A stretch of DNA of 64,000 nucleotides, taken from Psychrobacter sp. PG1 (GTDB lineage Bacteria > Pseudomonadota > Gammaproteobacteria > Pseudomonadales > Moraxellaceae). Positions 4,619 to 64,000 of this stretch are shown piece after piece; the first letter of the stretch is position 1, and each line of letters starts with the position of its first letter. A program made the position numbers and the translations under genes. The notes beneath the pieces are model-generated. The model did not search any database. It saw nothing but the letters and a program-made list of their open reading frames with translations, and was not told the origin of the DNA. The stretch spans positions 62,001 to 126,000 of the forward strand of contig NZ_JABUZG010000053.1 in NCBI RefSeq assembly GCF_014897815.1, given 5' to 3'.

Positions 4619-4718
4619 ATATTAACGTTACCAAGTATTAACATACTATGGAATACTTTGCCACTAAGGCCTCTTGGTTTTTACCATTTTATAGCTATTG
4701 AATACGATGAGATGATGT

Positions 4719-42984: not shown

Positions 42985-43604
42985 TCAGTATCGTCATAAC
43001 AGTTGTCAATACTTGCGGATAGTAGCCATTAGCTGTTGATAAAGACCATTAATGAGTAATTGTGTTAATGGTCACAGTTAATAGTTGCTAAAGTTTTTGT
43101 TTTGTTGGCAAACCTTATTTATCATTCATTAAAGACCTTACAATCTATATGGTTATGCTATTTTCACAAAAGTTTACAATTATTTCTCATTGACCGTTGT
43201 ATGACTGTACATTAGCTGTTAATGAAGATGGCGCTTGCCATGACAGCATTTAATGCATTCACAAAAGCTGATATTACGATTTCTAACCATAAATCCTGCG
43301 ATCAACTACTTGACTGTGGGGTTATCCCGATAGTTTATAATTACTCGTTAACTTTACTAATCAAGGTTGTGGTTTGGCTACAGCTTTGATGCTTAAGATT
43401 CTTACACCGATACTTGATACTTATATCGCTATTAGAGGTTCTAATAGTGATGTTTGGCTAAATTCATATTATTAAGAACAAATTTAGCCGAGAAAGTAAA
43501 GATCATTAGAATCAATACTCATTTTTATATTCAATACGCTTAGATTTATTGATAAACTTTTTATACTGTCATTACTTATTTTATACCTATTGCCGAGGAC
43601 ATTG
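42985..43604. other. Long upstream region of the efflux operon
   Basis: 620 bp without a gene. It is AT-rich; I see no TetR, MarR or LysR-type regulator gene as is common next to acrAB operons, and no clear repeat or terminator. It presumably carries the efflux promoter. Confidence 0.45.
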
Positions 43605-45002: not shown

Positions 45003-45036
45003 TTCCATTCAAAGATAGGAAGACTAGGAATATACT

Positions 45037-48000
45037 ATGTCACGTTTTTTTATTAATCGCCCTATTTTTGCATGGGTTATGGCTATTTTAGTCATGCTCA
45101 TCGGGGTGATATCGGTCATTAACTTACCGATTGAGCAGTATCCACGTATTGCACCACCGACGATTTCAGTCAGCGCAAGCTATCCTGGTGCTAATGCTCA
45201 GACGGTTGAAGATTCAGTCGTTCAGATTATTGAGCAACGCATGAAGGGTCTTGATGGTCTGATGTATATGTCGTCATCGAGCTCCTCGAATGGTGCTGCA
45301 TCCATTACGCTCACTTTCGAAAATGGTACAGATTCTGATACTGCACAGGTACAGGTGCAGAACAAACTCCAAGCCGCCATGAGCTCACTACCTGAGTCGG
45401 TACAGCGTCAAGGCGTCAACGTTAATAAATCCTCTAGCAGCTTTTTAATGGTGCAAGGTTTTATTTCTGAAGATGGCAGCATGGATCGTGCGGATATCGC
45501 CGATTATGTCAACTCAAACGTTGTTGACCAGTTAAGCCGTGTGGAAGGTGTTGGTGAAGTACAAGTTTTCGGTTCTGCTTATGCCATGCGCATTTGGTTA
45601 GATCCGGCGCGCTTACGTAGCTATAACATGGTGCCAGCGGATGTGGTTGAGGCAGTACGTGCACAAAACGCCCAAGTATCTGCCGGTCAGCTAGGTCAAG
45701 CACCTGCTGATACCAGTCAACAGGTTATCAATGCGACTGTCACGGTTCAAAGCTACCTACAAACGCCTGATGAATTTAAAAACATTCTATTAAAAACGGA
45801 TACCGCTGGCGCAAAAGTGCGTTTAGGTGATGTGGCAGAAGTTGAGATTGGTAGTGCAGACTACGGCGTAGTGTCGCTATACAATGGTAAAGAAGCAGCT
45901 GGTCTTGGTATTTCATTGGCGGGTGGCGCAAACGCACTGGAAACTCGTGAAGCTGTTGGGGCTCGTATGGCAGAGCTGGAAGCAAACTTCCCAGCAGGTC
46001 TAACATCCGTTATCCCTTATGACACCACACCATTTGTGCGCTTGTCTATCGAACAAGTGGTTATGACACTGCTTGAGGCAATTGTTCTCGTATTTATCGT
46101 CATGTTCGTTTTCTTACAGAACTGGCGTGCGACCATCATTCCTACTCTTGCCGTACCTGTCGTACTACTTGGCACCTTCGCTGTACTTTACATCGCTGGT
46201 TTTAGTATTAACGTCTTGACCATGTTTGCCATGGTACTATCCATCGGTCTGTTGGTCGATGATGCGATCGTCGTTGTCGAAAACGTCGAGCGTATCTTGG
46301 AAGAAGATCCTGATATCTCTATTAAGGATGCTACCGTACAATCGATGGGCGAGATTAGTAAAATCGTTATTGGTATTGCGCTGATTCTATCTGCCGTATT
46401 CGTACCGATGGCATTCTTCGGTGGCTCAACAGGTGTGATTTATCGTCAGTTCTCTATCACCTTGATTACCAGTATGGTGCTATCAGCCTTAGTAGCGCTT
46501 ATCTTTACCCCTGCCCTTTGTGTGACCTTACTCAAGCGTAGCAAGAGCCATGATAAAGGCAATACAGAAGAGCAAAAAGGCTTCTTTGGTTGGTTTAACC
46601 GCTCGTTTTATAAAGTCAGTCGTAGTTACGAGAATTTAGTTGGCAAAAGTTTCCGCTTGAAGTGGCTATACTTAATTCTTTATGCTGCCATTATCGGTAT
46701 TATGGCAGTGGTATTCTTACGTATTCCCGGCTCGTTCTTACCAGAAGAAGATCAAGGTATTATGTTTACCTTGGTTCAGTTACCTGCTGGTGCGACGCTT
46801 GATGAAACGCAAGAAGTGCTCGATAAAGTCAGTGATTATTACAGTACCCAAGAAGGCGATAATATCGCTTCAGTCTTTACGATCGCAGGTTTCAGTTTTG
46901 CAGGACAAGGGCAGAATATGGGACTGGCCTTTGTACGTTTATCGGATTGGGCTGATCGTCCCGGTGAAGAAAACACTGCACAGGCTGTCGCTGATCGCGC
47001 CATGGGTTACTTCTTTACCCAACTAAATGAAGCACAAGTATTTGCGATTGTACCGCCAGCCATTACCGAACTTGGTAACGCCAGTGGTTTTGACTTAATG
47101 ATTCAAGACACCGGTAACCTTGGACATGAGGGTCTACTCGAAGCACGTAATATGCTGCTTGGCATGGCTGCGCAAAACGACAAAGTCGCAGGCGTTCGTC
47201 CAAATGGTCAAGAAGATGCACCGCAGTTAAAAGTGAATATTAATCAAGAGCAGGCCGCTGCTTATGGCTTATCACTTGCTAGTATTAATAGCGTTATTTC
47301 TACCGCTTGGGGCTCAAGTTATATTAATGACTTCGTCGATCGCGGGCGTATTAAACGCGTCTTTGTTCAAGGTGAACCAAGCAGCCGCACTAACCCTGAA
47401 GATATTGCTAAATGGTATGTACGCAACGATGTAGGTGAAATGATTTCATTTGATGCGTTTTCTAGCAGCGAATGGCAATCTGGCTCACCGCGTCTGACCC
47501 GTTATAACAGCTTACCATCGATGAATATTCAAGGTAGTGCTGCACCCGGTCTAAGTACGGGTGAAGCGATGAGTTCAATGGAAGCAATGATGGAGAATCT
47601 GCCCGAAGGTGTGGGCTATGAGTGGACGGGTATGTCACTTGAAGAGCAAAAGTCAGGTGCTCAAGCGCCGATGCTATACGCGCTTTCAATCTTGGTGGTA
47701 TTCTTATGTCTAGCAGCCTTGTATGAAAGCTGGTCTATCCCCTTCTCTGTGCTATTGGTCATTCCACTTGGGGTATTAGGTGCAGTCATCTTTACTTGGC
47801 TACGTGGCTTTAATAACGATATTTATTTGCAGGTAGGTCTACTCACAGTCGTTGGTCTATCCGCTAAAAATGCTATCTTGATCATTGAGTTTGCAAAAGA
47901 GCACCAAGAGGAAGGCTATAGTCTGAGAGAAGCCGTCATGACAGCCGCGCGTCAACGTTTGCGCCCGATTATCATGACCTCGCTTGCCTTTGGACTGGGT

Positions 48001-48267
48001 GTTGTGCCATTATTTATCGCCACAGGTCCTGGTTCAGGCAGTCAAAATGCCATCGGTACCAGTGTACTAGGTGGCGTCGTGACCGCGACATTGTTAGGTA
48101 TCTTCTTTATTCCCATGTTTTATATTTGGGTACGTAGTATGTTCCCGTACAAATACGAGAATAATAAACCAAACGATAAAGATGATGATAATAGTACGCC
48201 TGACCCGAAAAACCCAACGCCTTCTGAGAATTATCAGCCTGCAAGCTTTGGAGACAATACACAATGA
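45037..48267 (+). CDS. RND multidrug efflux transporter (AcrB/MexB family, HAE1)
   Basis: 1076 aa with 12 membrane helices in the classic 1+5+1+5 pattern and two large periplasmic loops. The proton-relay aspartates D408 and D409 lie in [31 protein letters not shown] sequence marks helix 11-12. It exports drugs, bile salts or solvents by proton antiport. The C-terminal tail (about 1040-1076) is Asn/Asp/Pro-rich. The stop overlaps the next start by 4 bp. Substrate range is not readable. Confidence 0.95.
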
Positions 48268-50075
48268 GTGTTCAGAAAACATATAACACCAACTCAGCAG
48301 CGGTAGCAAACATTGCTATCACTGCGCAACCAGCGGGCTCACATATGCGCAGAAATGCTGGTCGCCTAATCGGCTTGACCGTTTTAGCGATGAGCATGGC
48401 TGCTTGTAACACGATTCCAAAAGCAGATATGCGCCCTGTGCTTGCTGAGCCAAATATCCCTATCGAACAAACCTATGGGGCATTCGATAAAGAAACGGTT
48501 AGTAGCGCTGATCAAGCAAGTATTGCGGGTCAACGCTGGCAGAATTTTTATAGCGATGAGCGTTTAAAGGGCTTGATTGCTTTAGGGTTAGAGAACAACA
48601 AAGATTTTGAAAGTGCTCGTTTAGCAATCGAGAAAGCACGCGCACAGTATCAAATTACCGATCTTAATGATCTACCAGCGATTAATGGTAATGGTGGATA
48701 CACGCGTCAAGCACAAAATAGAACCGACAAAAACCCCAATAGTAGTTATAACGTCAACCTAGGGTTGGCTAATTACGAGTTGGACTTTTGGGGCAAAATT
48801 GCTAGCTTAAAAGATCAAGCGCTACAGAATTTCTTAGCCACTACAGCGGCCAAAGATTCGACCCAAATCAGCTTGATTAGTAATATCGCTCAGAGCTATG
48901 CCAACTTGAGCTATAGCTTAGCGCAGTTAAAGCTGGCAGAAGCGACGGTTGAGAGTCGTGAAAAGTCCCTGTTTATCGCTGATAAACGCTTTGAAGCAGG
49001 CATTGATCCGAAGCTGCCATCTTTGCAAGCCAGTGCGTCATTAGAAAATGCCAAACTTGCTGTCCTACGGGCACAAAGCAGCATTTTAAAATCACGTAAC
49101 GCCTTACAGTTCTTGGTGGGTGGACCGATTCCAACCAATCTAATTCCAACACCAGCAGTCAGCAACATCACTAGCCAGCAGATATTTAGTGCAGGCTTAC
49201 CAAGTGAGTTGCTACGTTATCGCCCAGATGTACTGCAAGCAGAATACAACCTAAAAGCCGCTGGAGCCAATATCGAAGTGGCACGAGCGTCTTATTTCCC
49301 GTCTATCAGCTTAGCAAGTAGCATTGGGGTTAGTAGCGGCAGTTTAGATGACTTATTCAAAAGCGGCGCTGTCGGTTGGTCGTTTGGCCCAAGCATTAGC
49401 GTGCCTATCTTTGACGCTGGTCGCTTAGACGCCAATTACGATGTGGCTAAAATTGAGCGTGAACAAACGCTCACAGGCTACGAGAAATCGATCCAAACCG
49501 CATTCCGTGAAGTGTCAGACGTACTCGCGACACGAGCCACGCTGGGTGAGCAGCTCGAAGCACAATACCGTCTACAAGATAACTTTGAACAAACATTCCA
49601 GATAGCAGATGCACGCTTTAAAGCAGGTATTGCCAACTATCTAGATGTGTTAGATGCACAGCGTTCATTGTTCTCAACGCAGCAAGGTATTTTGGATTTA
49701 GAGCTACAAAAAATTGTGAGCCAAGTCGAGCTATACCAAGTGCTGGGTGGCGGTGCTAATTTGGATGTACCAACGGAGATTCCTGTACCGCATAAAAACT
49801 TAGTGCAACTAGTGAATCTACCGGCCAATAGTAATAAAGCAAAAGCGGCGAATGCTATCGATGCGGCTAGCTCAGCGCGGGTTGCTTCTGCACAAGAAGC
49901 AAACGCCATTAAACAAGCGCAACCATCGGAAACGGCTACCTTTGAGCCGACCGCTGTCGTTGACGTCAATAATGATGGCAAAAAAGATGCTGCCGTAGGA
50001 GTCGTTACCAAACAGACGACGTATAACGAAACCAGTGTTGAGCAAGTACCGGTCACGCAGATCGTTGAGCCTTAA
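48264..50075 (+). CDS. Outer-membrane efflux channel (OprM/NodT family) with C-terminal extension
   Basis: 603 aa. The signal peptide ends in a lipobox with C48 (SMAAC). The two OEP repeats of the TolC-like barrel and helical tunnel occupy about 90-500. Usual family members are about 480 aa; the extra 100 residues at the C-terminus are Ala/Ser/Gln-rich and include DVNNDGKKD at about 567-575, which has the spacing of an EF-hand-like calcium loop. An internal ATG giving [10 protein letters not shown] is a plausible alternative start. Third gene of the efflux operon, translationally coupled to the transporter. Confidence 0.9.
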
Positions 50076-50128
50076 ATACTGATAAATAGTGTGAGGTGAT
50101 TTCCTTCACATTGATAGTCGATAAGTAC

Positions 50129-50159
50129 AAAAAGCCCTACCGACTTGGTAGGGCTTTTT
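50129..50159 (+). terminator. Terminator of the efflux operon
   Basis: AAAAAGCCCTACC and its complement close a 5-nt loop; a T-rich tail follows. Confidence 0.88.
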
Positions 50160-50307
50160 GCTTTTTTAAGGCGCTTTTAGTTATAGTAGGGAAATTAGCT
50201 TACACATACTTTTATCCACTTATTAATGTCCGTGATATAAAAAAACATATGCTTCAAAACAGCTTATTTAATCAAGCTGATAAATAACAATGACTAAAAT
50301 CTAATGA

Positions 50308-51324
<1,017 letters not shown>

Positions 51325-51361
51325 TATAAATTAAGCAGCTTTTTATTTATACCGTCAATTC

Positions 51362-51400
51362 ATCGCGCCAACTGTGATCAATCAGCTGGCGCGATTTTTT
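51362..51400 (+). terminator. Terminator after hemB
   Basis: ATCGCGCCA and TGGCGCGAT form the stem, extended by a second pairing of CTG with CAG; six T residues follow. Confidence 0.85.
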
Positions 51401-51430
51401 ATTGGTCTTATTTTAATACCTCAATAGAAC

Positions 51431-52408
51431 TTATAAACGTGTACGCTCGTGTGGCTCATTAAAATCAAGCACTGGACCAATAGGAATGATACGCGTGGGA
51501 TTGATATTGGCATGGCTAGTATAATAATGCTGCTTAATATGCTCGATGCTTACCGTCTCTGCAATACCTCGCACTTGATATAAATCACGCAAATAACCCC
51601 AAAGATTGGGATAATCAACAATACGGCGAATATTACATTTAAAGTGTCCGACATATACCGCATCAAAACGCACCAGCGTAGTAAACAAGCGCCAATCCGC
51701 CTCAGTAATCGTATTACCTAGCAAATAACGCTGGTCTGTCAAACGTGCCTCTAGCGTCTCTAATACATCGAATAGCTCCGTCACCGCTTCTTCATAAGCC
51801 TCTTGTGTGGTCGAAAATCCTGCTTTATAAACGCCATTATTGACCGTAGAATAAACGAGCTCATTAACTGCATTAATTTCTGCTAATAACTCGGTTGGTA
51901 AAAAATTACCTGCTAGTGCCCCAACCTCATCAAAAGCTGAGTTAAACATACGAATGATCTCAGAGGACTCATTACTGACGATGGTATTGGTTTTTTTGTC
52001 CCATAATACGGGCACCGTCACCCGTCCTGTATAGTCAGGCTTTGCCGCCGTATAAATCTCATATAAGTAATTAGCATTTACAATAGGATCAGCAATCACG
52101 CCCTCGCCCTCTGCAAACGTCCAGCCCTTATCGCCCATAAATGGATGCACCACTGACAGCGAAATCAGGTCTTGCAAACGCTTTAGCTGACGGTAAATAA
52201 TGGTACGATGTGCCCAAGGACATGCAAGCGAGATATATAAATGATAGCGATCAGCTTCGGCTTTAAAACCGCCAACACCTGATGAGCCTGCGCTGCCATC
52301 GACCGTGACCCAATTTCTAAAACCGGCATCTTCTCGCTCAAAACGTCCACCGCTCGCCTCTGTGTCATACCATTTGTCTTGCCATTGACCATCAACCAAT
52401 AGACCCAT
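51431..52408 (-). CDS. yqjG: Glutathionyl-hydroquinone reductase
   Basis: 325 aa. The catalytic cysteine is C63 in SLACPWAHRT, a GST-xi signature, followed by VHPFMGDKGW and the domain DPIVNANYLYEIY. The enzyme removes glutathione from glutathionyl-hydroquinones. The length matches the family. It is convergent with hemB and ends the core segment before the tRNA-Val island. Confidence 0.93.
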   Translation of the reverse strand: MGLLVDGQWQDKWYDTEASGGRFEREDAGFRNWVTVDGSAGSSGVGGFKAEADRYHLYISLACPWAHRTIIYRQLKRLQDLISLSVVHPFMGDKGWTFAEGEGVIADPIVNANYLYEIYTAAKPDYTGRVTVPVLWDKKTNTIVSNESSEIIRMFNSAFDEVGALAGNFLPTELLAEINAVNELVYSTVNNGVYKAGFSTTQEAYEEAVTELFDVLETLEARLTDQRYLLGNTITEADWRLFTTLVRFDAVYVGHFKCNIRRIVDYPNLWGYLRDLYQVRGIAETVSIEHIKQHYYTSHANINPTRIIPIGPVLDFNEPHERTRL

Positions 52409-52714
52409 AACACTCTCCTCAACATTCTATTTTGATATAACTTTTGTGAAATATGCATACTGTGAAGTCATTATCACTATCCTCACTTTATTTTGAGAAT
52501 GATACCAGTTATATACTGCCTAGCTATTAGGATTTGTAGTTCTACTGACAATAAAAAATAAACCAATTTCAATCACTATTTAATATAACTACATAAAAAA
52601 ATATTAAAAGTCACTTAATATAAAGTGTGATAATCATTATTATGCTAATAAAAAAATTTATTAGAAATAAAGCTTGCAAAGTCTCAAAAACTTGATAGAA
52701 TACTCAACCTAAAT
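52409..52714. promoter_or_regulatory. Region between yqjG and tRNA-Val
   Basis: 306 bp, AT-rich. It holds the tRNA promoter (52674-52701). A sequence TGATAATCATTATTATG at about 52628-52644 resembles a Fur box. No gene is seen. Confidence 0.45.
52674..52701 (+). promoter_or_regulatory. Promoter of tRNA-Val
   Basis: TTGCAA at 52674-52679 and TAGAAT at 52696-52701 with a 16-nt spacer, 13 nt before the mature tRNA. Confidence 0.7.
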
Positions 52715-52791
<77 letters not shown>

Positions 52792-52800
52792 GATTCGAAA

Positions 52801-52831
52801 AGCCCCAATCTTAAGATTGGGGCTTTTTTTT
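52801..52831 (+). terminator. Terminator after tRNA-Val
   Basis: AGCCCCAATC and its complement GATTGGGGCT flank a 2-nt turn and are followed by eight T residues. Confidence 0.9.
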
Positions 52832-53032
52832 GTCCGTGAAATATGGGCTGTAGCGGAAAAGGAAACTATACGTCGATTCAAATTACCTCTTTTCTCACTT
52901 TCAGCAAACATCATCAAAAAACGTGTGTGCCCAAATTGTGCCTAAGTTGCGCCTGCTATCTATTTCGCCTTTCTTTCAGAGTAGCACTTTTGACCTCTAC
53001 CCTAAACTATCTAAAGCAATCTCAAAATTGAT

Positions 53033-53257
53033 TTACTTCTCTTTATCTAGCGACTCGTTAGGTACATAAGTAAATAAATCACCTACTTCAATATCTAGTG
53101 CCTCACAAATTTTATCCATAGTGTCAAAATCTATTCTTGAAGTCTGTTCGTTATAGATCTTGTGCACTGTCGACTTACTAATTCCTGTCATCCTTATTAG
53201 ATCTGCCACCTTCATACGTCGTTCAGCTAGTAGCACTGGTAAATTACATAAAATCAT
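53033..53257 (-). CDS. XRE-family (Cro/CI-like) helix-turn-helix regulator
   Basis: 74 aa, almost only a helix-turn-helix domain (about 10-65): VADLIRMTGISKSTVHKIYNE is the recognition core and DTMDKICEALDIEVGDLF the closing helices. AAGGA precedes the ATG. It is divergent from the excisionase-like gene, with repeated AAGTACTT-type sites between them. It most likely represses the integration/excision genes of the island; that is inference from position. Confidence 0.8.
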   Translation of the reverse strand: MILCNLPVLLAERRMKVADLIRMTGISKSTVHKIYNEQTSRIDFDTMDKICEALDIEVGDLFTYVPNESLDKEK

Positions 53258-53281
53258 TAATAATTCCTTAATAGACTAAAA

Positions 53282-53341
53282 AAGTACTTGCATCAACTAA
53301 CAATAGCTAGTAAAGTACTTCTATCGAACAACAAATTACTT
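53282..53341. promoter_or_regulatory. Candidate operator sites for the XRE regulator
   Basis: AAGTACTT occurs at 53282-53289 and 53313-53320 and a near copy AATTACTT at 53334-53341, between the divergent regulator and excisionase-like genes. Start-to-start spacings are 31 and 21 bp, close to three and two helical turns, so all would face the same side of the helix. AAGTACTT is itself palindromic. Confidence 0.5.
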
Positions 53342-53634: not shown

Positions 53635-54846
53635 ATGGCTAGTATTAGAACCCGTAGAGGGAGCAATATGCTATTTGTCGATTTTTATTACATGGGTATA
53701 CGCTGTCGGGAGACAACAAACCTAACAGACACACCAGCAAATCGCAAGAAGCTTGAAAAAGTGATTGAGAAGATGGAAGCAGAAATCATCTTAGGACTGT
53801 TCAACTACGCTAAGTACTTTCCAAAAAGTGATAAAGCGGCACAGATGGTAGCGTTAAACGACCGCAAGGAATGCATTAGTACCGATACGCCTTCTTTTGA
53901 ACAGTTTGCAGAATTATGGTTTGCTGAAAAAGAAATTGAATGGCGTGATACTTACAAGCGCAAAATAAAGGAGATTATTGATATGTACTTGATTGTTAAG
54001 TTTGGGACTAAGCCCATTCATCTCATAAAAAAGACAGATGTATTAGCCTTCCGTTCATCGCTCGCCAAAGTAACGTACGGAAAAGCTAACAAACATCTGT
54101 CAGCGGCACGCATCAATTCGATAATGGTACCTTTGGGTATGATACTAAAAGAAGCGGCTAAACGCTATAAATTTGATAATCCTTACTACGATATCAATGC
54201 GCTCAAGCAACCTAAAACGGATATCCAACCATTCACACTAAGTGAGGTTTGGACGTTTATTAATGGGGTGAGAGCAGACTATCGCAATTATTATCTGGTA
54301 CGTTTTTTTACAGGTATGCGTACGAGTGAGATTGATGGGTTAACGTGGGAGAACATTGACTTTAATCGACGTGAGATTGTGATCAAACAAGCTTATGTTA
54401 AAGGCAAAATTGTTCCTCCTAAAACTCAAGAGTCTTATCGTGCAATTCAAATGTCACCTTGGGTCTACGATGCTCTGAAGGAACAGCAGACCATCACTTA
54501 TAAGCGATCTGACTATGTGTTTTGCGCACATACGGGTGAGCCACTTGATTACAACAATGTGAATAAGCGTGTTTGGCACCCTACTCTTAAGGTTTTAGGT
54601 CTGAAGAAGCGCAATGCTTATCAGACCCGTCATACCGCAGCAACGCTATGGTTGGCTGCTGGCGAAAGTCCTGAATGGATTGCCAGTCAAATGGGACACT
54701 CTACAACCAAGATGCTGTTTAATACATATAGTCGCTATGTACCGAACATGACTCGACAGGATGGTAGTGCGTTTGAAGCATTGGTCAATCGCAGTCAGAT
54801 TGCTCAGGTATCTACCGATAAGGGGCCTCACAATGAAAATGATTGA
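53635..54846 (+). CDS. int: Tyrosine recombinase / phage-type integrase
   Basis: 403 aa. The N-terminal arm-binding domain (DUF3596-like; FVDFYYMGIRCRETTNL) is followed by a SAM-like core-binding domain (about 85-180) and the catalytic domain. Catalytic residues are R229 in TGMRTSEIDGL, R332 in YQTRHTAAT, the GH pair in SQMGHST and nucleophile Y365 in NTYSRY. The first histidine of the HxxR box is replaced by Tyr, a known variant. AAGGAGGA precedes the ATG. It lies 840 bp from tRNA-Val, which is presumably its target. Confidence 0.92.
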   Translation: MASIRTRRGSNMLFVDFYYMGIRCRETTNLTDTPANRKKLEKVIEKMEAEIILGLFNYAKYFPKSDKAAQMVALNDRKECISTDTPSFEQFAELWFAEKEIEWRDTYKRKIKEIIDMYLIVKFGTKPIHLIKKTDVLAFRSSLAKVTYGKANKHLSAARINSIMVPLGMILKEAAKRYKFDNPYYDINALKQPKTDIQPFTLSEVWTFINGVRADYRNYYLVRFFTGMRTSEIDGLTWENIDFNRREIVIKQAYVKGKIVPPKTQESYRAIQMSPWVYDALKEQQTITYKRSDYVFCAHTGEPLDYNNVNKRVWHPTLKVLGLKKRNAYQTRHTAATLWLAAGESPEWIASQMGHSTTKMLFNTYSRYVPNMTRQDGSAFEALVNRSQIAQVSTDKGPHNEND

Positions 54847-55501: not shown

Positions 55502-55630
55502 TTATTGCTTTTTAAAACTTTAACGACATCTGTTGTCGCTAATGTCCTTTTAAATATTGTTTTGTCAACAAAGTTTCGTTAAAGTGAATTCATATTCAAT
55601 TTTTTATCACTGTTAATAGACGGAACTATA

Positions 55631-56623
55631 ATGGCGAAACCCAATAATGCCTATACCGACAATAGCTTTGTCTCTTCAGATCTCAAAACCATTTTGCACT
55701 CCAAACGTGCAAATATCTACTACCTGTCGCATTGCCGAGTCATGCAAAAGAACGGACGTGTGTTATATCTTACTGAAGATGACAAAGCTAACCTCTATTA
55801 TAATATTCCTATCGCTAACACTACCTCCATTCTACTTGGTACAGGCACCTCCATTACTCAAGCGGCGATGCGCCTTCTATCACAAGCAGGCGTGTTAGTT
55901 GGCTTTTGCGGCGGTGGTGGTATGCCGTTATTTATGGGCACAGAGCGTGAGGTCTATGTTGAGTGGATGACTCCGCAAAGCGAGTATCGACCGACTGGAT
56001 ATATTCAAGGTTGGATGAGCTGGTGGTGGGATGATGATAAACGCCTTGCTGCAGCCAAGCAGTTGCAAATAGCTCGCGTTGCTTATCTGCAAGCGGTATG
56101 GAATAAAGACAGCGACCTTAAACGGTGGGGTTTTGACAGCAATATCGATGCGATACAGAAACTGCTCAATGATAATATTCAGCAAATCGATAAGCAGACA
56201 GAGGTTATGCATTTATTGCAATTGGAAGCCCGCCTGACCAAGCAACTGTATAAGCTAGCTGCCAAAAATACGGGTTATGATGGCTTTACCCGTGAGCACG
56301 ATGGTATCGATAAAGCTAACGGCTTCTTAAATCATGGCAACTATCTGGCGTACGGTCTCGGTGCCACGACCTCATGGACGCTTGGCATTCCGCACGGTTT
56401 TGCGGTGATGCATGGTAAGACACGGCGCGGTGCCTTGGTGTTCGATATTGCCGATATTATCAAGGACGCACTGGTGCTACCCCTCGCCTTTATCTGCGCT
56501 AGCGAAAACATGAGCGAGCAAGAGTTTCGTCAAGAGTGCATTAATATGTTTACCAAGCACAAAGCGCTGGATTATCAGTTTGAGGTGGTTAAACAGTTGG
56601 CGATGACTAAGTGGAAAGTGTAG
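55631..56623 (+). CDS. cas1: CRISPR-associated endonuclease Cas1, type I-F
   Basis: 330 aa. The beta-rich N-terminal domain (SKRANIYYLSHCRV, LYYNIPIANT) and the helical C-terminal domain follow the I-F subtype in length and sequence. The presumed metal ligands are kept: E199, H261 and D272/D275 (LEARL, HGFAVMHGKT, FDIAD). Cas1 integrates new spacers at the CRISPR leader with Cas2. The stop is 3 bp before the next start, as expected for cas1 and cas2-3 of type I-F. Nothing indicates decay in this gene itself. No csy genes or array are seen in the window. Confidence 0.93.
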   Translation: MAKPNNAYTDNSFVSSDLKTILHSKRANIYYLSHCRVMQKNGRVLYLTEDDKANLYYNIPIANTTSILLGTGTSITQAAMRLLSQAGVLVGFCGGGGMPLFMGTEREVYVEWMTPQSEYRPTGYIQGWMSWWWDDDKRLAAAKQLQIARVAYLQAVWNKDSDLKRWGFDSNIDAIQKLLNDNIQQIDKQTEVMHLLQLEARLTKQLYKLAAKNTGYDGFTREHDGIDKANGFLNHGNYLAYGLGATTSWTLGIPHGFAVMHGKTRRGALVFDIADIIKDALVLPLAFICASENMSEQEFRQECINMFTKHKALDYQFEVVKQLAMTKWKV

Positions 56624-56626
56624 AAA

Positions 56627-57577
56627 ATGATTGTTACCTTTGTCTCTCAATGTGAGAAGAAATCACTTAAGCGTACACGGCGTATCTTAGACTCCTTTGC
56701 TAACCGCATTGGTGATAACGTTTGGCAGACGGCTATTACTGAGGATGGGCTACAGACGGTTAAGCAGCTCTTGCGTAAGTCAGCGACCAAATCTACGGCG
56801 GTCAGCTGTCATCGTAATAAGACTCGTCAGCTGACGGAGTTGGTATGGATTGTGGGTAATAAGCGGCGGTTTAATGAGGTTGGTGTGGTTCCTGTGAACC
56901 GTACTAAGCGTAATATCTTACACAGTGAATGGGAGAATGATTGGACGTATGCCAGTAGTATCCAAATCATTGCTACCATTGCTGCGCTACTGCACGACAT
57001 TGGCAAATCAACGGTTGGTTTTCAAAAGAAACTCCTTGTCGGTAGTAAACAAGGCGACTCTTATCGGCATGAATGGATATCATTAAAACTGTTTGAGCTG
57101 ATGATTGGCGATTGCAGCACTGACGAAGCATGGCTTGACCATTTAATGAATTTAAATGAATGGTTAGAAAATAACAATATAGACAATCTACTATCTAATG
57201 CTAATAAAGATGTCGTCAATATAAAAGCTATGCCGCCCCTAGCACAGTGGGTTGCTTGGCTGATTGTCACTCATCACCGCCCCCCACTGTCAGCGGCGAT
57301 TAAAGCCCATGGTCAAGTAAATGTAAAAACTTACACTAATAAATTTATGCCCATGTTTCGTGCGGTTGCACACGATGATATAACATCATCGACAGTTAAA
57401 ATTGTCTGTGCAGGTCGCGATGAGACCGTGGTGGGCATTCATGCCGTCGGGTCAGATGTGGATGAAATTTTACAAGGATTTGCTTTGGCAATGAAAGTTG
57501 GTATTACTAAAGCAGATTTAGAAGAGACATTTACCATTCATCCAACAAGTGCAGAAGAATTTTTAAGTTTTAACTAA
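56627..57577 (+). pseudogene. Chimeric frame: Cas2-HD part of Cas2-3 fused to glutathione reductase tail
   Basis: 316 codons in one open frame. Residues 1-95 look like the Cas2 domain and about 100-220 like the HD nuclease domain of type I-F Cas2-3 (LLHDIGK with H123 and D124, YRHEW with H148, THHRPP with H216/H217). The SF2 helicase and all later domains, normally most of a protein of about 1,100 aa, are absent. From about residue 225 the sequence is the C-terminal interface domain of glutathione reductase: YTNKFMPMFRAV, GIHAVGSDVDEILQGFA and TIHPTSAEEF, with its catalytic His-Pro pair. The junction lies at about 57285-57317. The fusion is in frame with no stop. I infer a deletion joining two genes. 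Whether a protein is made is unknown. Confidence 0.85.
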
Positions 57578-57611
57578 GCGGATATAAAGTGAGTGAATAT
57601 TGAAAGTAAAT

Positions 57612-57643
57612 GAGGTTAGCCGTTATAAGCAACGTCTAACCTC
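57612..57643. terminator. Inverted repeat between convergent genes
   Basis: GAGGTTAG and CTAACCTC, extended inside by CGTT and AACG, form a strong hairpin 35 bp past the chimeric frame and 13 bp from the rclA-like stop. No long T run follows, so termination is likely but not certain. Confidence 0.55.
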
Positions 57644-57655
57644 GCTATAAAACAG

Positions 57656-58993
57656 TTAGTTGATAGCAGCAAACAAATCATTCAATGCTTCACTCATACT
57701 AGGGTGGGTAAAAATATGATCACGCACCTGCTGGTAGGTTAAGCCTTGACGGATTGCTAAATCCATAAAGTTAATCAATTCATGCGACTCGGCACACAAC
57801 AGTTGCACACCCAAGATTTTATCAGTTTTAGCATCTACTACGGCCTTAAGCAGCCCATCAGCTTGTTCTAAGATATTGGCTTTAGGAATAGTTGCTGCAT
57901 CTAGTGTGGCGGTTTTAATGTCATAACCTTTATCTTTTGCCATTTTTGCGGTCATACCGACATTAGCAAGTGGCGGATTGACAAACACCGCATAAGGGAA
58001 AGTACGGTCTTTGGTGGTGTAACTGCCATCGCCCAATACTTGGCTTTTAACTACACGATAATCATCGAGCGAAATATAGGTAAATTGGGGGCTGCCTGCC
58101 ACATCGCCCATCGCATAGATATTCGGCACGTTGGTTTGTAATTTTTCATTGACAGCAATATAACCTTTATCGGTAAGCTCAATGCCCGCTTTTTCAAGGT
58201 TTAGCCCTTCGGTATTGGCTCTGCGGCCTGTAGCAACCAAAATCGCATCGGCATGCAGTTCGCTATCAGCGGTGGTAATTGTGGCTTGCTGTCCACTATC
58301 GCTTATTTTTTTGATTTGCTGATTAGTTTTGACTGTAATATGCTGTTTTGCCATGATAGCGAGTAAAGTTTTGGTGATATCTTCATCTTCTCGTGGTAAA
58401 AAGGTATCGCCTGTTTCTAAAATCGTCACTTCACTGCCAAACCCTGCAAAAATAAAGGCAAACTCTAGCCCGATATAGCCACCACCAATAATAACGAGCT
58501 GTTTTGGTAAATCGGTTAGTTGCATGATACGGGTGCTGTCGTAGGCAAATTTGCTGTCTTTTAACCCATCAATCGGCGGCTGCCAGTTATACGCCCCTGT
58601 ATTGATGTAAATATAATCAGCAGTGATGGTCAATGTGTCAGTATCGGTGACGACCTGCACGGTTTTATTATCAATAAAACTGGCTTTGCCTGTAATCACT
58701 TCGGCATTATCTAGACTATCAACTTTCTCAAAGTTGGCATGATTAAGTTTATCAATTAAATCGTTCTTTTTGCTAACTGCTTGAGCAAGTGATGGTTGTA
58801 CGTCATGACCATAAGCTAAGAAGGCTAATTTTTTTGAGGGAATACAGCCAATATTGATACAGGTACCACCATACATGGTAGCGGACTGCTCCACTAAAAT
58901 CACGGATTTGCCTGTCTTGGCTAAAGCTTGTGCCAGAGTTTTACCTGCTTTGCCAAAGCCGATAATCAGATGTTCGATGTGTTTTATGGTCAC
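57656..58993 (-). CDS. rclA: RclA-like pyridine nucleotide-disulfide oxidoreductase
   Basis: 445 aa from a GTG start preceded by GAGGGG. The FAD-binding GFGKAGKTLA (12-21), the redox disulfide C45 and C50 in GGTCINIGCIPSKK, NAD-binding GGGYIGLEFA and the dimerisation domain ending FTHPSMSEAL are present. GFGKAGKTLA and MYGGTCINIGCIP match E. coli RclA, a hypothiocyanite reductase of the reactive-chlorine response, better than dihydrolipoamide dehydrogenase or mercuric reductase. No rclR, rclB or rclC is adjacent. It is convergent with the gor-tailed chimera; an IS982 element lies upstream. Confidence 0.85.
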   Translation of the reverse strand: MTIKHIEHLIIGFGKAGKTLAQALAKTGKSVILVEQSATMYGGTCINIGCIPSKKLAFLAYGHDVQPSLAQAVSKKNDLIDKLNHANFEKVDSLDNAEVITGKASFIDNKTVQVVTDTDTLTITADYIYINTGAYNWQPPIDGLKDSKFAYDSTRIMQLTDLPKQLVIIGGGYIGLEFAFIFAGFGSEVTILETGDTFLPREDEDITKTLLAIMAKQHITVKTNQQIKKISDSGQQATITTADSELHADAILVATGRRANTEGLNLEKAGIELTDKGYIAVNEKLQTNVPNIYAMGDVAGSPQFTYISLDDYRVVKSQVLGDGSYTTKDRTFPYAVFVNPPLANVGMTAKMAKDKGYDIKTATLDAATIPKANILEQADGLLKAVVDAKTDKILGVQLLCAESHELINFMDLAIRQGLTYQQVRDHIFTHPSMSEALNDLFAAIN

Positions 58994-59111
58994 TGTGAGC
59001 CCCTCTGTTTTTATGATTGATTATAAGTTTTATGATTAAATAGAACTTGCTCCATAGTGTAATGATATAGTAGAGATATGCAATTTTATTAATAAAATTT
59101 AACATATTAAT

Positions 59112-60093
59112 ACCCCACTCTCAACACTTTTAAGCGGGGTTGAAACAAAAAAGGCATGAACTTAAACTTTAATCAATGACCAAAAAGATTAGAGAACAAG
59201 CCATGCCCATCGACGAATTTATCATTAAAATCTATCTAATGGTAGATGACTACTACAAAAAGATTGTAACAAACCGGCTAAGACAAGGCGGATATGCACC
59301 AAAGCTAACCGACAGTGAAATTATTACCATGGAGATAGTGGGTGAGTTTTTACAGATGGACACCGACTCACAAATCCATCAGTATTTTAAACAGCATTGG
59401 CAAACATGGTTTCCACAAATAGGCTCATATCCCAACTTTGCCAAGCAGTGCGTCAATTTGTTACAGGTAAAAACTTTGATACAACAGCATATCGTTAAAC
59501 AGTATGGACAAGACAACATTCATTTTATCGATGGCTTTCCCATTCCTGTATGCCAATATGCCAGAGCGTATCGGTATAAAACCTTCAAATACGAAGGTAG
59601 TTATAGTTACTGCGCCTCAAAGCAACAAAAATATTTCGGCTTTGAAGGACATTTACTCATTAATCTATCGGGCATGATAACCAATTTTACCTTTGCCTCT
59701 GCCAGAATAGATGAAAGATTAGTGGCACCTGATATGCTTGATAATATCAAAGGCTTGTTAGGTGCAGATATGGGCTATATTAGCCCTGATTTATCTGAGT
59801 ATTGCTTTAAGCGATGTGTTGATTTGCAAACACCGCTTAGAAAAAATATGCCCGATAAACGACCAATCAGTGTACTTAATCGTCTTAAAAATGCTCGTCG
59901 CAATATTGAGACGGTGATTGGTCAGTTATCACAGCGGTTTAATATGCAAAAGGTGAGAGCGAGAGATTTATGGCATTTATCCCACAGATTTATGCGTAAA
60001 ATCTTGGCTCATAACTTCTGCTTTGTAATCAATAAACAGTTAGGTAATCCCCCACTTCAGTTTGAGTTGCTTATTTCAAGTTGAGAGTGGGGT
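59112..60093 (+). mobile_element. IS982-family insertion sequence
   Basis: 982 bp bounded by exact 14-bp inverted repeats, ACCCCACTCTCAAC at the left and its complement at the right. It contains one transposase gene. No clear target duplication is visible in the flanks, which suggests a deletion or recombination at one end. The right end cuts a serine-recombinase gene. Confidence 0.9.
59176..60084 (+). CDS. IS982-family transposase
   Basis: 302 aa DDE transposase. The first Asp lies in FIDGFPIPVC, the second in LLGADMGYIS and the Glu in RRNIETVIGQLS, with the family start YLMVDDYYKK. An internal ATG at 59203 (MPIDEFIIK) may be the true start. Full length, so it may be active. Confidence 0.9.
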   Translation: MTKKIREQAMPIDEFIIKIYLMVDDYYKKIVTNRLRQGGYAPKLTDSEIITMEIVGEFLQMDTDSQIHQYFKQHWQTWFPQIGSYPNFAKQCVNLLQVKTLIQQHIVKQYGQDNIHFIDGFPIPVCQYARAYRYKTFKYEGSYSYCASKQQKYFGFEGHLLINLSGMITNFTFASARIDERLVAPDMLDNIKGLLGADMGYISPDLSEYCFKRCVDLQTPLRKNMPDKRPISVLNRLKNARRNIETVIGQLSQRFNMQKVRARDLWHLSHRFMRKILAHNFCFVINKQLGNPPLQFELLISS

Positions 60094-60191
60094 TTATCAT
60101 CATAACTTGTACTGAAAGCCACCAAATCAGCTAATGCTCTGGTAGCGTCTTGATCCTTAGTGCTGGCTCTCACATAAATACGAACGGTCAT
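60094..60191 (-). pseudogene. Serine recombinase, first 32 codons (cut by IS982)
   Basis: On the reverse strand an ATG at 60191 begins MTVRIYVRASTKDQDATRAL, the N-terminal signature of resolvase/invertase-family serine recombinases with the nucleophile in YVRAST (S10). After 32 codons the frame enters the IS982 terminal repeat and stops soon after. Nothing similar continues on the far side of the IS, so the rest was deleted, not just interrupted. Confidence 0.8.
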
Positions 60192-60449
60192 AACGCTACC
60201 TCTATTACTTAGACTTAATAATTAATGTTCATTGATAACAGCAAGAGATTGCTATCATTTAATATCAGATACAAGTCTAATGATAGATAAATTATTATTT
60301 AAAGGTTTTATGTTTTAGGTATAGACTAATGATAAGGGGTTGAAGTGGCTCCGTTGAGGTATAAGTTGATGAAATGGTTGGACGCATTAAAAAAGATCCT
60401 GCTTTTTTTAATAAAGAACGTCCTATCCGTACATACCTAAATGATTAGT
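60192..60449. other. Region upstream of the recombinase remnant, possible res site
   Basis: AGTCTAATGATA at 60274-60285 and AGACTAATGATA at 60323-60334 are near-identical 12-mers 49 bp apart; TTAGACTTAATA near 60209 resembles them on the other strand. Such repeated motifs next to a resolvase gene fit resolution subsites. A short open stretch at about 60366-60450 on the plus strand has no recognisable family. No other gene is seen. Confidence 0.35.
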
Positions 60450-62194
60450 TTATTTTAGCACTTTGTTGATATTTTCAATGAGCTTAGTCCAATTGCTTAT
60501 CTCATCTTCTGTAAGGCTTGAAGCGTCATTACTCTTACACCATTTAATAAAATGTTTGGCTAAGTCATATTTTGAAAAGTTGGGAACTTGTGATTGAAAT
60601 ATACTCACAATACCTCTTGTGGACTGCGAATCTGCTATCGACTTACAGTCGATTGAATATTCTGTTTCTACGATTCTAACAAGTGTATCTCTCAATAAGT
60701 CTTCTATCTCTGGAGAAGTAACGTTTTGACAGTAGTCTTTAGTTCGAAGGATGTTTTTATTACCTAGAGTATATACCAAGCTATCTTGAGTAGCTGCCTG
60801 ATTTCCAGCACTATCAGAATCAAGTAAAGCTGCAATTTTCAAATTTTGAGCATGTAGTATGGTGGCGTAGTAGACTACTTTGCCAGCTGTATTAGCGAAA
60901 ACTAGAGAGATTTTATCGTTCAAGTCAGCTATTTTTTTTGCGCGTAAAAGTGCTGACGCTGCCTCTATATACCAGTAATCTGTTAGCCCCTCTAAAATTA
61001 GATTCTTCTTTTGCGTAAATAAGCTTTGAGCCAAATCGTATCCTAATGCTTCTTGGAGAGGGAGAAGAGCCGCTGGATCGCTTGAATTAATTGTATTATG
61101 TACTTTAGTACCATCACTACGATCTTTCATTTCCACAACTTTGACAATATTTAGTTCATCAGGCCCTACTAGAAATGGAGAGTGAGTGGTATAGATAGTT
61201 TGGTTTTGTTCCGCTAATCTTGATATTGTTGTTCTAAAATCTCGTTGCTTCAAAGCATGAAGGCTCATGCCTGGTTCATCTAGAAGAAGAATAGCATTTT
61301 TATGTTTATCCGCAGCTTCTGCAAAGAAAATTATAAAAAACGACACAAGCCATTGAAAACCCTCTGATCGTTGATCTAACTCAATATCGACACCCATATC
61401 GTCTTCTACAACAACTTTCAAGTACTGACCATCAGCTGTTACTCTTAGTTTATCGGCTTCTGGTCTGTTAGGGTTTGGCATCCATATTTTTCGAATTTCT
61501 CTCGTGAGATGAATGCTTGCCGCATTTAACAAATAACTCCTCCTATCTAGTTTGTCTTGGTAGTCCTTCAATGCTTTTGGATTATTAGCATTTGGGACTG
61601 GAGTATTACCAAAGTCAGATAGTTCTTTTACATCGAATCCTAGAAACTTTAAAAGACATAAGTTCCCATAATCATAATATTCATCATCTAACAAACCACT
61701 CTCTGACCTTTTGTATAAATGATCTAGGTTAATTAATGGTTTTACTTTTGAGTAATTATTGAAAAGAATAAAAACTGGCATTCTTGCATCCAGAGTGTCA
61801 AGGACTAGATCGGACGATTCACCAATCTTTGCTTTGGCTCTTAATTCTTCATGTCTCTTTTCTTCTTTAGTATTGTCTTCTTCAATAAGAGCATAATAAT
61901 TATCTAAAAAGCTAACCAAAGAACGGGATCTATCTCCTGATATCTCAGTAGAGTCTACCCATTCATTAACGATTGCATTTAAAATATTACTTGGCTTCTT
62001 CATTTGTTCATCTGGGTCTTCAACAAAATATTGCTTATCCAGATGTGATGCTAACCTTAATAAACCGCCTCTGATGTCTGAAAAATATATGGCTGACGGC
62101 CCATTTTCTATAGAGTGATAACTTTGATTATCAATAGCTCTTTCTACTTTATATATACAATCATGGAATGGCTTTGGAATAAGAGCTTTATCAG
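60450..62194 (-). pseudogene. OLD-type ATPase/TOPRIM nuclease, N-terminal part missing
   Basis: The remaining frame from the ATG at 62003 gives 517 aa. It has the ABC-type signature RSEGFQ (212-217), Walker B AILLLDEPG (D242, E243), switch histidine H274 in TTHSP and a C-terminal TOPRIM domain (E338 in LILEGLTD, D395/D397 in ALLDSDSAG). This is the layout of OLD-family anti-phage nucleases. A P-loop is absent. The frame stays open and protein-like for 63 more codons upstream (for example AIYFSDIRGGLLRL) until the IS3 end at 62195, where a stop appears. So the gene was longer and lost its ATP-binding start at the IS. Confidence 0.8.
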
Positions 62195-62233
62195 TGAACC
62201 GCCCCGACTATATCGGAGGCTGATCTACTTGAG

Positions 62234-63136
62234 TCAGGCAGCGATGCCTGACAGGGTTAAATTATCATAATACCGCTTTTCAAACTCAAAGGGTGACACA
62301 TATCCAATCGTGCTATGTAGACGCTTCTTGTTGAACCAATCCACCCATTCAAGGGTTGCAAGTTCAACATCGTTCACACCAGTCCAGTTCTGCTTTAAAT
62401 AATGAATCACCTCAGACTTGTAAAGCCCATTGACCGTTTCAGCCAATGCATTGTCGTATGAATCGCCTGTTGTACCAACAGAAGCAATCACGCCAGAGTC
62501 CGTCATCTTATCGGTATAGCGAATGGATAAATACTGAACCCCTCGATCACTGTGATGAATCACATCTTTGGGATAGTTTCTATCTGCTATTGCTTGATTT
62601 AACGCCGCCATCACCATATCTGTGTTCATACGATTAGATACTTTCCAGCCCACAATAGCGCGAGCAAATACATCGATGATAAAAGCGGTATAAACCCAGC
62701 CGCTCAATGTCTTGATATAAGTAAAATCTGCAACCCACAGCTGATTAGGACGATGGGCATTAAAGTTACGATTGACCAAGTCGTCAGCACGCTTTTGGTC
62801 GTCACGGCTGTTGGTGGTAATCTTACCCTTACCGCGCCAGACACCTTGTAAGCCGTGCTGACTCATTAAACGCTCGACGGTGCAGCGTGCGATATAAATG
62901 CCATCTGCCTTCATCTGCCGCCAGACTTTGCGAGCATCATAGCGGCATTTGCTGTCCTGCCAGATGCGTTTAATCTCGCTGAGATAGTAGTCGTCATGCT
63001 GACTGCGCAGTGAACGCCTTTCAGGGCAGCACTCTAGGTCTTTAGTACGGTGATAGGTTGACGGGGCAATCGGTAGTACTCTACAAATCAGCTCGACCCC
63101 ATAACTACCTCTATAGTCATCAATAAACTGAACCAT
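62234..63136 (-). CDS. IS3-family transposase OrfB (catalytic)
   Basis: 300 aa with an HTH_21 domain (about 35-90) and an rve integrase core. DDE residues: D in WVADFTYIKT, D in IIHHSDRGVQY-like HHSDRGVQYLS and E in DNALAETVNG. Its ATG shares one base with the orfA stop (TAATG). The frame is also open upstream, so it is probably made as an OrfAB fusion by -1 frameshifting. Confidence 0.93.
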   Translation of the reverse strand: MVQFIDDYRGSYGVELICRVLPIAPSTYHRTKDLECCPERRSLRSQHDDYYLSEIKRIWQDSKCRYDARKVWRQMKADGIYIARCTVERLMSQHGLQGVWRGKGKITTNSRDDQKRADDLVNRNFNAHRPNQLWVADFTYIKTLSGWVYTAFIIDVFARAIVGWKVSNRMNTDMVMAALNQAIADRNYPKDVIHHSDRGVQYLSIRYTDKMTDSGVIASVGTTGDSYDNALAETVNGLYKSEVIHYLKQNWTGVNDVELATLEWVDWFNKKRLHSTIGYVSPFEFEKRYYDNLTLSGIAA

Positions 63137-63453
63137 TATCTGGGTGGACGGCCCTTCTCCGCCTGGGCGAAAAAAGCAGCAGCCTTACGTATAATCTCAT
63201 TGGCTTGCTTGAGCTCTTTGTTCTCGCGTTCAAGCGCTTTGATACGCTCTTTATCACTTTGCGCTTGCACCGATGCAGGAATAGTTTGATCGATGTGCTT
63301 TTTATGCCAGGATCGCAGTGTCTCAGGCGTACAGCCAATCTTTGACGCTATGGCTTGAATGGCTGACCATGTAGAAGGATAGTCGCTCGACGCTTCAATC
63401 AGCATGCGGACGGCGCGTTCTTTAATCTCAGGAGTGTAGGTTTGTCTTTTCAT
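63136..63453 (-). CDS. IS3-family transposase OrfA
   Basis: 105 aa with an N-terminal helix-turn-helix (KERAVRMLIEASSDYPSTWSA is its first part) and a C-terminal leucine-zipper coil (KERIKALERENKELKQANEI). The reading frame holds a TTTTTTC heptamer-like slip site at 63169-63175 (reverse strand), 30 nt before its stop. Confidence 0.92.
   Translation of the reverse strand: MKRQTYTPEIKERAVRMLIEASSDYPSTWSAIQAIASKIGCTPETLRSWHKKHIDQTIPASVQAQSDKERIKALERENKELKQANEIIRKAAAFFAQAEKGRPPR
63169..63175 (-). promoter_or_regulatory. Candidate -1 frameshift site of the IS3 element
   Basis: TTTTTTC on the reverse strand is in the phase T TTT TTC relative to orfA, a classic -1 slippery heptamer. The orfB frame is open from here through its ATG, so slippage would give an OrfAB fusion. 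Confidence 0.55.
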
Positions 63454-63503
63454 TGTCGTATTCTCTCAGAATGTTGAGTCTCCGACAATCCCGGGGCGGT
63501 TCA

Positions 63504-63612
63504 ATCCGTAACTGGACGTCTGCTCTGAATCGTTTTATGATTATGTTTGATGACCGTATCAGTAAGCATTTAATCTAAATGGCAGTTACACAGAATCTGG
63601 GATGGTCTCTGC
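63504..63612 (+). pseudogene. C-terminal end and right terminus of an IS256-family element
   Basis: Directly after the IS3 end, codons 63504-63578 read IRNWTSALNRFMIMFDDRI and end in SKHLI plus stop, the last residues typical of IS256-type (mutase) transposases. Immediately after, GTTACACAGAATCTGGGA resembles the right inverted repeat of that family. The remainder of the element is missing, cut by the IS3. Confidence 0.65.
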
Positions 63613-63979
63613 CTCATAGAAATGAAATAAAAATAGCGCCTGCAATGGGCGCTATTTTTATGAGTCTAGTAAGGGCTCATCAATCATATTTATAAATATT
63701 CACAGTTAGACATCAGGATCACTACCGCTTCATTGATTACTTTTCTTTTTATGCTCTATAAACATATATCACCATAAGGGCTCAACGATTAGTCCTGTAT
63801 ATAGTTTTAAGCAGATAACGACCACACTATTCTGATAGCGTACCCACCATAACCTCATCCAAAAACACCTGGCAATCTAAATTCACATCATTTTCAAAAA
63901 CTGATTATCCAAATCCAAGATTAAAGTTAAATGTATAGCAAACCTCAATAAGGGCGAATACTCGTAATTGGAGACTTCA
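63579..63979. other. Final intergenic region
   Basis: About 400 bp with the IS256-type terminus at its left, a terminator-like hairpin (63628-63659) and otherwise no gene I can support. A 27-codon open stretch on the reverse strand near 63835-63905 looks protein-like but is bounded by stops. Confidence 0.4.
63628..63659. terminator. Terminator-like hairpin
   Basis: AAAATAGCGCC and GGCGCTATTTTT close a 7-nt loop with A and T runs on both sides. Confidence 0.7.
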
Positions 63980-64000
63980 ATGTTACTATTTTTCTTTGAA
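63980..64000 (+). CDS. Possible start of a gene cut by the window edge
   Basis: An ATG at 63980 follows GGAGA with a 5-nt gap and opens MLLFFFE before the window ends. Only seven codons are visible, so the product cannot be named. Confidence 0.3.

Follow-up and report, generated by a model that had tools for sequence, protein, structure and literature searches.

How does a reading frame come to begin as a CRISPR protein and end as a redox enzyme? Within the window, the whole 64,000-nucleotide stretch of the Psychrobacter sp. PG1 contig analyzed here, the list of open reading frames and translations contains a frame encoding 316 residues (56627–57577, forward strand) that opens like type I-F Cas2-3 and closes like glutathione reductase. 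Such a frame could be a novel protein kept by its host, the trace of a recombination accident or an error of assembly. Below, the genome that contains the window is G000, Psychrobacter sp. FME13 is G001 and G097 is a relative of the same genus.

Composition of the chimeric reading frame

Profile searches of the kind proposed in the first-pass annotation bear out its description of the frame as a Cas2-3 front (residues 1–218) followed by a glutathione reductase interface domain (about 223–314). The Pfam profile of the I-F Cas2 domain, PF21384, matches residues 1–79 over its full length (1–79 of 79; 122.4 bits, cut-off 27; 8.8e-36), and the N-terminal Cas2 domain is therefore complete. The NCBIfam Cas3f profile TIGR02562 aligns to residues 1–236 with positions 1–245 of 1110 only (2.6e-85). 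At the other end, PF02852 (interface domain, Pfam) matches residues 225–312 with profile positions 22–106 of 110 (2.2e-21), and TIGR01421 (glutathione reductase, NCBIfam) matches residues 223–314 with positions 358–448 of 450 (9e-31). As had been claimed, the frame has neither the helicase nor the first part of gor. Neither full-length cut-off is reached, the chimera scoring 287.1 bits for TIGR02562 (cut-off 565.95; the protein of the relative G063 scores 1080.9) and 107 bits for TIGR01421 (cut-off 556.15). Searches against solved structures gave the same partition, with the I-F Cas2-3 structure 8flj matching residues 3–220 and glutathione reductases matching from residues 222–226 to 314. An AlphaFold2 prediction from the single chimera sequence was uninformative as to fold (mean pLDDT 34.6).

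Residues 1–218 resemble I-F Cas2-3 (TIGR02562; the intact G097 protein; PDB 5b7i and 8flj, which we take to be the Pseudomonas aeruginosa protein) in carrying the Cas2 domain, the linker and the beginning of the HD domain, whereas the chimera lacks the remainder of that domain, the helicase domains and the C-terminal region. No helicase match was obtained in the chimera; the intact relative yields PF22590 (80.6 bits) and a DEAD match below threshold. The HD domain is incomplete, being cut at residue 218 directly after THHR: LLHDIGK (121), RHEW (147) and THHR (215) are kept, and GDHNYS (339 in the intact G097 protein), the Asp of which is presumably the last metal-binding ligand of the domain, is lost. 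Among the HD motifs named by the first-pass annotation LLHDIGK is genuine, and "HHRPP" is a product of the join, since native cas3 reads HHRLPP. The Pfam profile for the Cas3 HD domain, PF18019, weakly matches residues 111–232 (26.9 bits, cut-off 23.1), scores the intact protein alike (23.1 bits) and covers only residues 111–230 there, so this match by itself does not reveal the truncation. In an excerpt of PMC13381967, RecA1 of the Pectobacterium protein begins at residue 385, which would place the HD region very roughly at 105–384; the chimera then retains ~114 of ~280 residues, so that roughly 60% of the HD domain is lost, as is the entire helicase.

The last ~90 residues resemble glutathione reductase (TIGR01421, PF02852), including TIHPTSAEEF near the end; unlike that enzyme, the chimera has no FAD domain, no NADPH domain and no redox-active disulphide. 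The interface domain itself lacks its first 21 profile positions.

The cas half lies in a nearly unchanged type I-F island

The cas part of the frame differs from the intact cas2-3 gene of G097 (1,160 aa) at a single base (653/654 identical), a change that may have arisen in either lineage. This near-identity extends leftward across the island, with 5 differences in ~4,280 positions between 53000 and 57280, and then ends: in 500-base bins from 43000 to 52999, identity to G097 is about 66–86%. The edge is sharp and falls at a tRNA-Val gene (Table 1), the differences dropping from 14/51 (52650–52699) to 1/50 (52700–52749) and to 0 in the bins covering 52750–53299. An edge of near-identity at a tRNA gene, together with a tyrosine integrase, indicates a mobile island, of which the tRNA-Val gene would be the attachment site; a second copy of the tRNA 3′ end was not found on the part of the contig that was searched.

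Table 1 Features of the island, the join and the foreign block (window positions)
Feature	Position	Strand	Evidence and remarks
tRNA-Val (gac)	52715–52791	+	ARAGORN; left edge of near-identity to G097
Tyrosine integrase of island	53635–54846	+	PF00589 2.2e-18, PF12167 5.4e-22
cas1 (type I-F), apparently intact, 330 aa	55631–56623	+	TIGR03637 475.5 bits, cut-off 150
5′ part of cas2-3	56627–57280	+	Cas2 domain, linker, first HD part; codons 1–218
Join	57281–57288	+	8 bases CCCCCACT, matching neither flank
3′ tail of foreign glutathione reductase gene	57289–57577	+	Interface domain; TIGR01421 positions 358–448 of 450
Flavin oxidoreductase, related to RclA / MerA-type hypothiocyanous acid reductase	57656–58993	−	NF040477 545.9 bits (cut-off 740, not reached); full-length ORF
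IS982-family element	59112–60093	+	14-bp perfect terminal inverted repeats; transposase 59176–60084; NF033520 243.6 bits, cut-off 130
Fragment common to several Psychrobacter plasmids as "recombinase family protein"	60094–60334		Plasmid/genome matches
AAA ATPase gene, 5′ end cut by IS3 element	60450–62194	−	PF13175 7.3e-13, PF13304 1.7e-10
IS3-family element	62196–63503	−	Transposase 62234–63136; NF033516 302.1 bits, cut-off 160; ends read from sequence
Short repeated fragment, 98 bases	63504–63601		Copies in G000, G097, G001
Stretch collinear with G097 C46:1917–8330	63602–64000 (on to 70016, continuing past the window)	+	98.9% over ~6.4 kb

The chimeric frame starts three bases past the end of cas1. 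With cas1 intact this close upstream and a promoter-like site at 55604–55632, the chimera could possibly be expressed behind cas1; this site is one of 8 found in the promoter scan, compared with a mean of 6.2 in shuffled sequences. In G097, cas2-3 is followed by four ORFs of the size and order expected of csy1-csy2-csy3-cas6f and then by a CRISPR array. These ORFs were named by their likeness to proteins of G063, a genome in which all four Csy proteins are present and exceed the NCBIfam cut-offs.

The tail belongs to foreign mobile DNA

From the window alone, the shortest account of the chimera would be a simple in-frame deletion between cas3 and a neighboring resident gor. A second, full gor elsewhere in the genome, suggested as a check by the first-pass annotation, indeed exists (G000:C59:109789–111135; 693 bits, above cut-off). 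Because this gene stands intact on another contig and its product is only 44% identical to the tail, the resident gor is, on sequence grounds, not the source of the tail. Furthermore, csy genes and not gor lie to the right of cas3 in G063 and G097, the two relatives whose ORFs were listed, and 3.16 kb from the tail onward are identical to an unrelated context in Psychrobacter sp. FME13. We therefore regard a simple deletion as next to impossible.

The identity to FME13 covers positions 57289–60448, gor tail included, without a single mismatch over 3,160 bases (contig NZ_RRYV01000227.1; G001:C141; 3,270 bases in length). In FME13 the tail is not joined to cas3 and is preceded by a 55-base insertion-sequence end; as aligned, it is a truncated gor remnant with no cas gene attached. 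Because the tail and its neighbors are identical in another Psychrobacter species that has no cas gene at this place, the block would have moved recently between Psychrobacter lineages, in either direction. Other gor tails are far more distant, at about 45–56% identity in Colwellia, Idiomarina, Kangiella and others (best 80 of 542 confirmed matches), all 133 records matching the tail in a plasmid protein search are below 60% identity, and no relative was found in the viral collection.

The 55-base end occurs in many copies in FME13 and matches 15 of 105 genomes of the genus (E 0.001 or better), and was not found in G000. A copy of the insertion sequence in another genome encodes an IS3-family transposase (193.8 bits, cut-off 160). 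The gor tail of the window (57286–57290) starts ~3 bases from where the FME13 element ends (L040:50–62), and this IS3-family element may have been involved in mobilizing the block.

Beyond the tail, the block up to 63601 is built of cargo genes and insertion sequences (Table 1). The oxidoreductase gene at 57656–58993 could possibly be cargo selected against host-made oxidants. Part of the ATPase gene (61611–62194) is 100% identical to a second FME13 contig (G001:C107), where it is abutted by the same insertion-sequence end. The IS3-family element of the block contains an ALIL pseudoknot (RF01497, 63062–63178). The element lies at the ATPase gene (60450–63503), and the sequence shows no matching target duplication around it, so this segment might have been rearranged once more. 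By translation, the 98-base fragment that closes the block resembles the 3′ terminus of an IS256-family element. Plasmid searches returned no record covering 80% of the query (0/72 and 0/38; the best of the 38 covers 23%), the matches being insertion sequences, the recombinase fragment, gor genes and a distant oxidoreductase.

On the second FME13 contig, the same ATPase gene lies ~600 bases from a four-repeat array of I-F type (L209:3126–3333 and 3911–4792). A Cas2-3 relative was not found in the FME13 genome by protein search; the array there stands alone, next to an ATPase that may serve in defence (its PtuA match is weak, at 22.8 bits vs 500).

The join and its reading frame

All nine distinct native cas3 continuations printed (9/9) diverge from the window after 57280 and read HHRLPP. 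This comparison used the last 180 bases before the join; loci not aligned to the last 15 of these bases were dropped, as were identical repeats. Two local alignments overrun 57280, by 7 bases to 57287 (G091) and by 12 bases to 57292 (G013), and both are taken as chance. The FME13 copy first matches the window at 57289. With cas3 similarity ending at 57280 and the FME13 match beginning at 57289, the join is confined to 57281–57288, and not to the vicinity of 57285–57317 where it had been placed before. A source for its 8 bases, CCCCCACT, was found on neither the cas nor the FME13 side, and the left join contains no insertion sequence or long repeat.

The last 10 cas bases, TCATCACCGC (57271–57288 region), are identical to bases 3–12 of the type of I-F repeat present in G063 and FME13. 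With the G097 type the match shrinks to 7 bases, and the break falls exactly at the end of TCATCACCGC. This coincidence, noticed post hoc, may be due to chance. Microhomology to a CRISPR repeat was not adopted as the cause of the join: agreement with the nearest relative, G097, is limited to those 7 bases, and no repeat sequence follows the join.

Joins in the two other frames would give proteins of 230 or 224 aa, so that nothing beyond a one-in-three chance is needed for the frame to stay open. The first-pass annotation had given this same chance and had correctly described the frame as clean; where it took these features as a possible sign of retention, we disagree. The join is recent and both halves are nearly unchanged, which explains the clean frame and deprives it of any information on selection. 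More generally, a clean frame that runs through a fusion point does not indicate selection if both halves are nearly unchanged copies, and an in-frame fusion of this kind would mislead annotation.

The probable right-hand side of the island and the likely loss of CRISPR functions

Past the foreign block, from 63602 to 70016, the contig follows contig C46 of G097. The first ~5.4 kb contain 7 differences, and the kilobase after that contains 62. C46 opens with nine I-F repeats (89–596), ~1.3 kb before the matching stretch. Because the contig from 63602 onward matches this repeat-bearing contig, the right end of the same island probably survives beyond the block. The contig of G097 that carries cas2-3 (C12) continues for 19.4 kb beyond its array, and this stretch has no match to C46; one I-F repeat type is found on both contigs (C12:19425–27480 and C46:89–596), and the repeats of C46 belong either to one array divided between the two contigs or to a separate, second array. 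If C12 and C46 form one locus, the lost piece would amount to at least ~9.9 kb (C12:19425–27480 plus C46:89–1916).

Three adjacent genes lie to the right of the block (1030, 796 and 179 aa; L159:3–6013), the first of which has a weak tyrosine-recombinase match. Relatives of the two large genes (37–39% protein identity, opposite orientation) are located right of the array in G063, G099 and G091 (L161:14710–17627), and in these three genomes the recombinase relatives share a contig with cas3. The three-gene set is a possible second mobility module of these CRISPR islands.

In G000, the only TIGR02562 match is the chimera itself and no further piece of cas3 was found. Csy3 (TIGR02566), the one of the four Csy proteins searched for in this genome, was not found either. 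With up to 3 mismatches allowed, the I-F repeat, the one repeat type searched, occurs 0 times in G000, compared with 24 times in G097, 20 in G063 and 85 in G099. The G000 assembly comprises 3.49 Mb in 84 contigs and is rated 100% complete.

We also considered loss driven by spacers that target the incoming DNA. When 356 distinct spacers from the relatives' loci were compared ungapped with positions 57281–63601, the best match had 10 mismatches, equal to that of shuffled spacers, and this candidate was discarded. Against a wider stretch of the contig the best match had 8 mismatches for real and for shuffled spacers, and among the BLAST matches listed only short ones occurred (shuffled control, 312).

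Origin of the fusion

Taken as a whole, the chimera is very probably the scar of a recent replacement of most of the I-F island by foreign mobile DNA, and the fusion itself is most likely accidental. About 6.3 kb of foreign DNA (57281–63601) would have taken the place of the remainder of cas2-3, the csy genes and the array, with the right island end resuming at 63602. The block could have entered by insertion-sequence-related integration or by recombination; its left end was presumably attached to cas2-3 by end joining, to judge from the 8 bases CCCCCACT and the lack of an insertion sequence there. The frame would have been kept by chance, letting the ORF continue to the gor stop codon. The event is recent because 1 of 654 cas bases and 0 of 3,160 bases on the foreign side differ. 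The first-pass annotation had offered a very recent deletion scar as one reading: recency agrees with the near-unchanged halves, and the partner is foreign mobile DNA in place of a resident gor reached by deletion. Several points speak against the replacement: the 8 join bases are without a source, the right side rests on a separate contig of a relative, the recombinase genes right of the array in G063, G099 and G091 are distant from those past 63602 and oppositely oriented, and the start of the gor tail ~3 bases from the FME13 insertion sequence is a coincidence that replacement does not fully explain.

Alternatively, the island and a plasmid or other mobile block may have been misjoined at 57281–57288 during assembly. 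The assembly is a draft in 84 contigs, the join is found amid many mobile elements, the 8 bases CCCCCACT are odd, and the split of the G097 repeats over C12 and C46 indicates that such loci assemble badly. However, the left join offers neither an insertion sequence nor a long repeat, C46-like sequence resumes near-identically on the same contig at 63602, and a misjoin alone is insufficient to account for a 3.49-Mb, 100% complete assembly in which further cas3, csy3 and repeat sequences were not found. An assembly error is thus unlikely.

Following replacement, CRISPR immunity would likely have been lost, leaving an intact cas1 next to a chimeric pseudogene. The product, if made, would combine the Cas2 domain with ~114 residues of HD and a piece of the interface domain, and would be expected to have no nuclease, helicase or reductase activity. 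As a protein, the chimera is probably of no importance. The value of the case lies in the well-resolved disarming of a CRISPR island, which left an almost unchanged backbone to the left of the break and in which the foreign block can be traced to another Psychrobacter species at 100% identity.

The fusion as a possible working protein and the search for it elsewhere

The first-pass annotation had alternatively suggested that a short Cas2-HD protein with a dimerizing tail is kept. Stated fully, Cas1 would work with a Cas2-HD fragment dimerized by the gor tail, in adaptation or DNA binding. The open frame, the intact cas1 three bases upstream and the complete Cas2 domain fit this idea. The Cas2-Cas3 linker is complete too (residues 95–104 in the P. 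aeruginosa I-F Cas2-3, our comparison system, according to an excerpt of PMC12259127). The same excerpt describes the I-F Cas2 domain as the central homodimer of the Cas1-Cas2/3 integrase, and a second dimerization domain is therefore unneeded. The I-F repeat and csy3 that such a protein would serve were not found in G000. In addition, the HD domain breaks off at residue 218 after THHR, far short of residue 385, where RecA1 starts in the Pectobacterium protein (PMC13381967, excerpt), and the interface domain lacks its beginning as well as its FAD and NAD(P) partners. The layout is also absent among the 120 listed of 372 protein hits. The suggestion thus finds no support, and we consider a kept working protein very improbable. 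We know of no job for the chimera product without csy genes and array. A bolder version, in which the join created a new expressed partner for the intact Cas1 (Cas2, HD fragment and a second dimerization module) that is kept as an array-less Cas1-Cas2-like DNA-handling complex, is hardly credible.

In the protein search just mentioned, all of the 120 listed hits have PF21384 and none has PF02852. The widest cover, 83%, belongs to P0006, a fragment of cas3 that beyond residue 218 aligns weakly and with gaps. The first-pass annotation had proposed looking for the same junction in related genomes; apart from G000 itself, no genome was found to have a cas2-3::gor join, either among 57 compared by protein or among 105 Psychrobacter genomes compared by DNA, where each genome contributed 2 scored candidate regions. 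A full-text literature search returned no paper treating Cas2-3, glutathione reductase and CRISPR together; an excerpt of PMC13348360 reports a Psychrobacter draft genome with a putative I-F system.

Short Cas2-HD ORFs occur among the hits in Psychrobacter fozii (P0005, 276 aa), Acinetobacter marinus (P0013, 287 aa), Moraxella nasovis (P0017, 238 aa) and Moraxella lacunata (P0018, 249 aa), on contigs of 0.48–2.03 Mb. Like the chimera, they are Cas2-3 proteins that stop or change some way past the HHRLP motif; unlike it, they have different tails, none with PF02852. Their truncations may reflect frameshifts or recurrent breakage. A further protein of 214 aa (P0112) combines PF21384 with PF25583 and is another possible Cas2-domain fusion.
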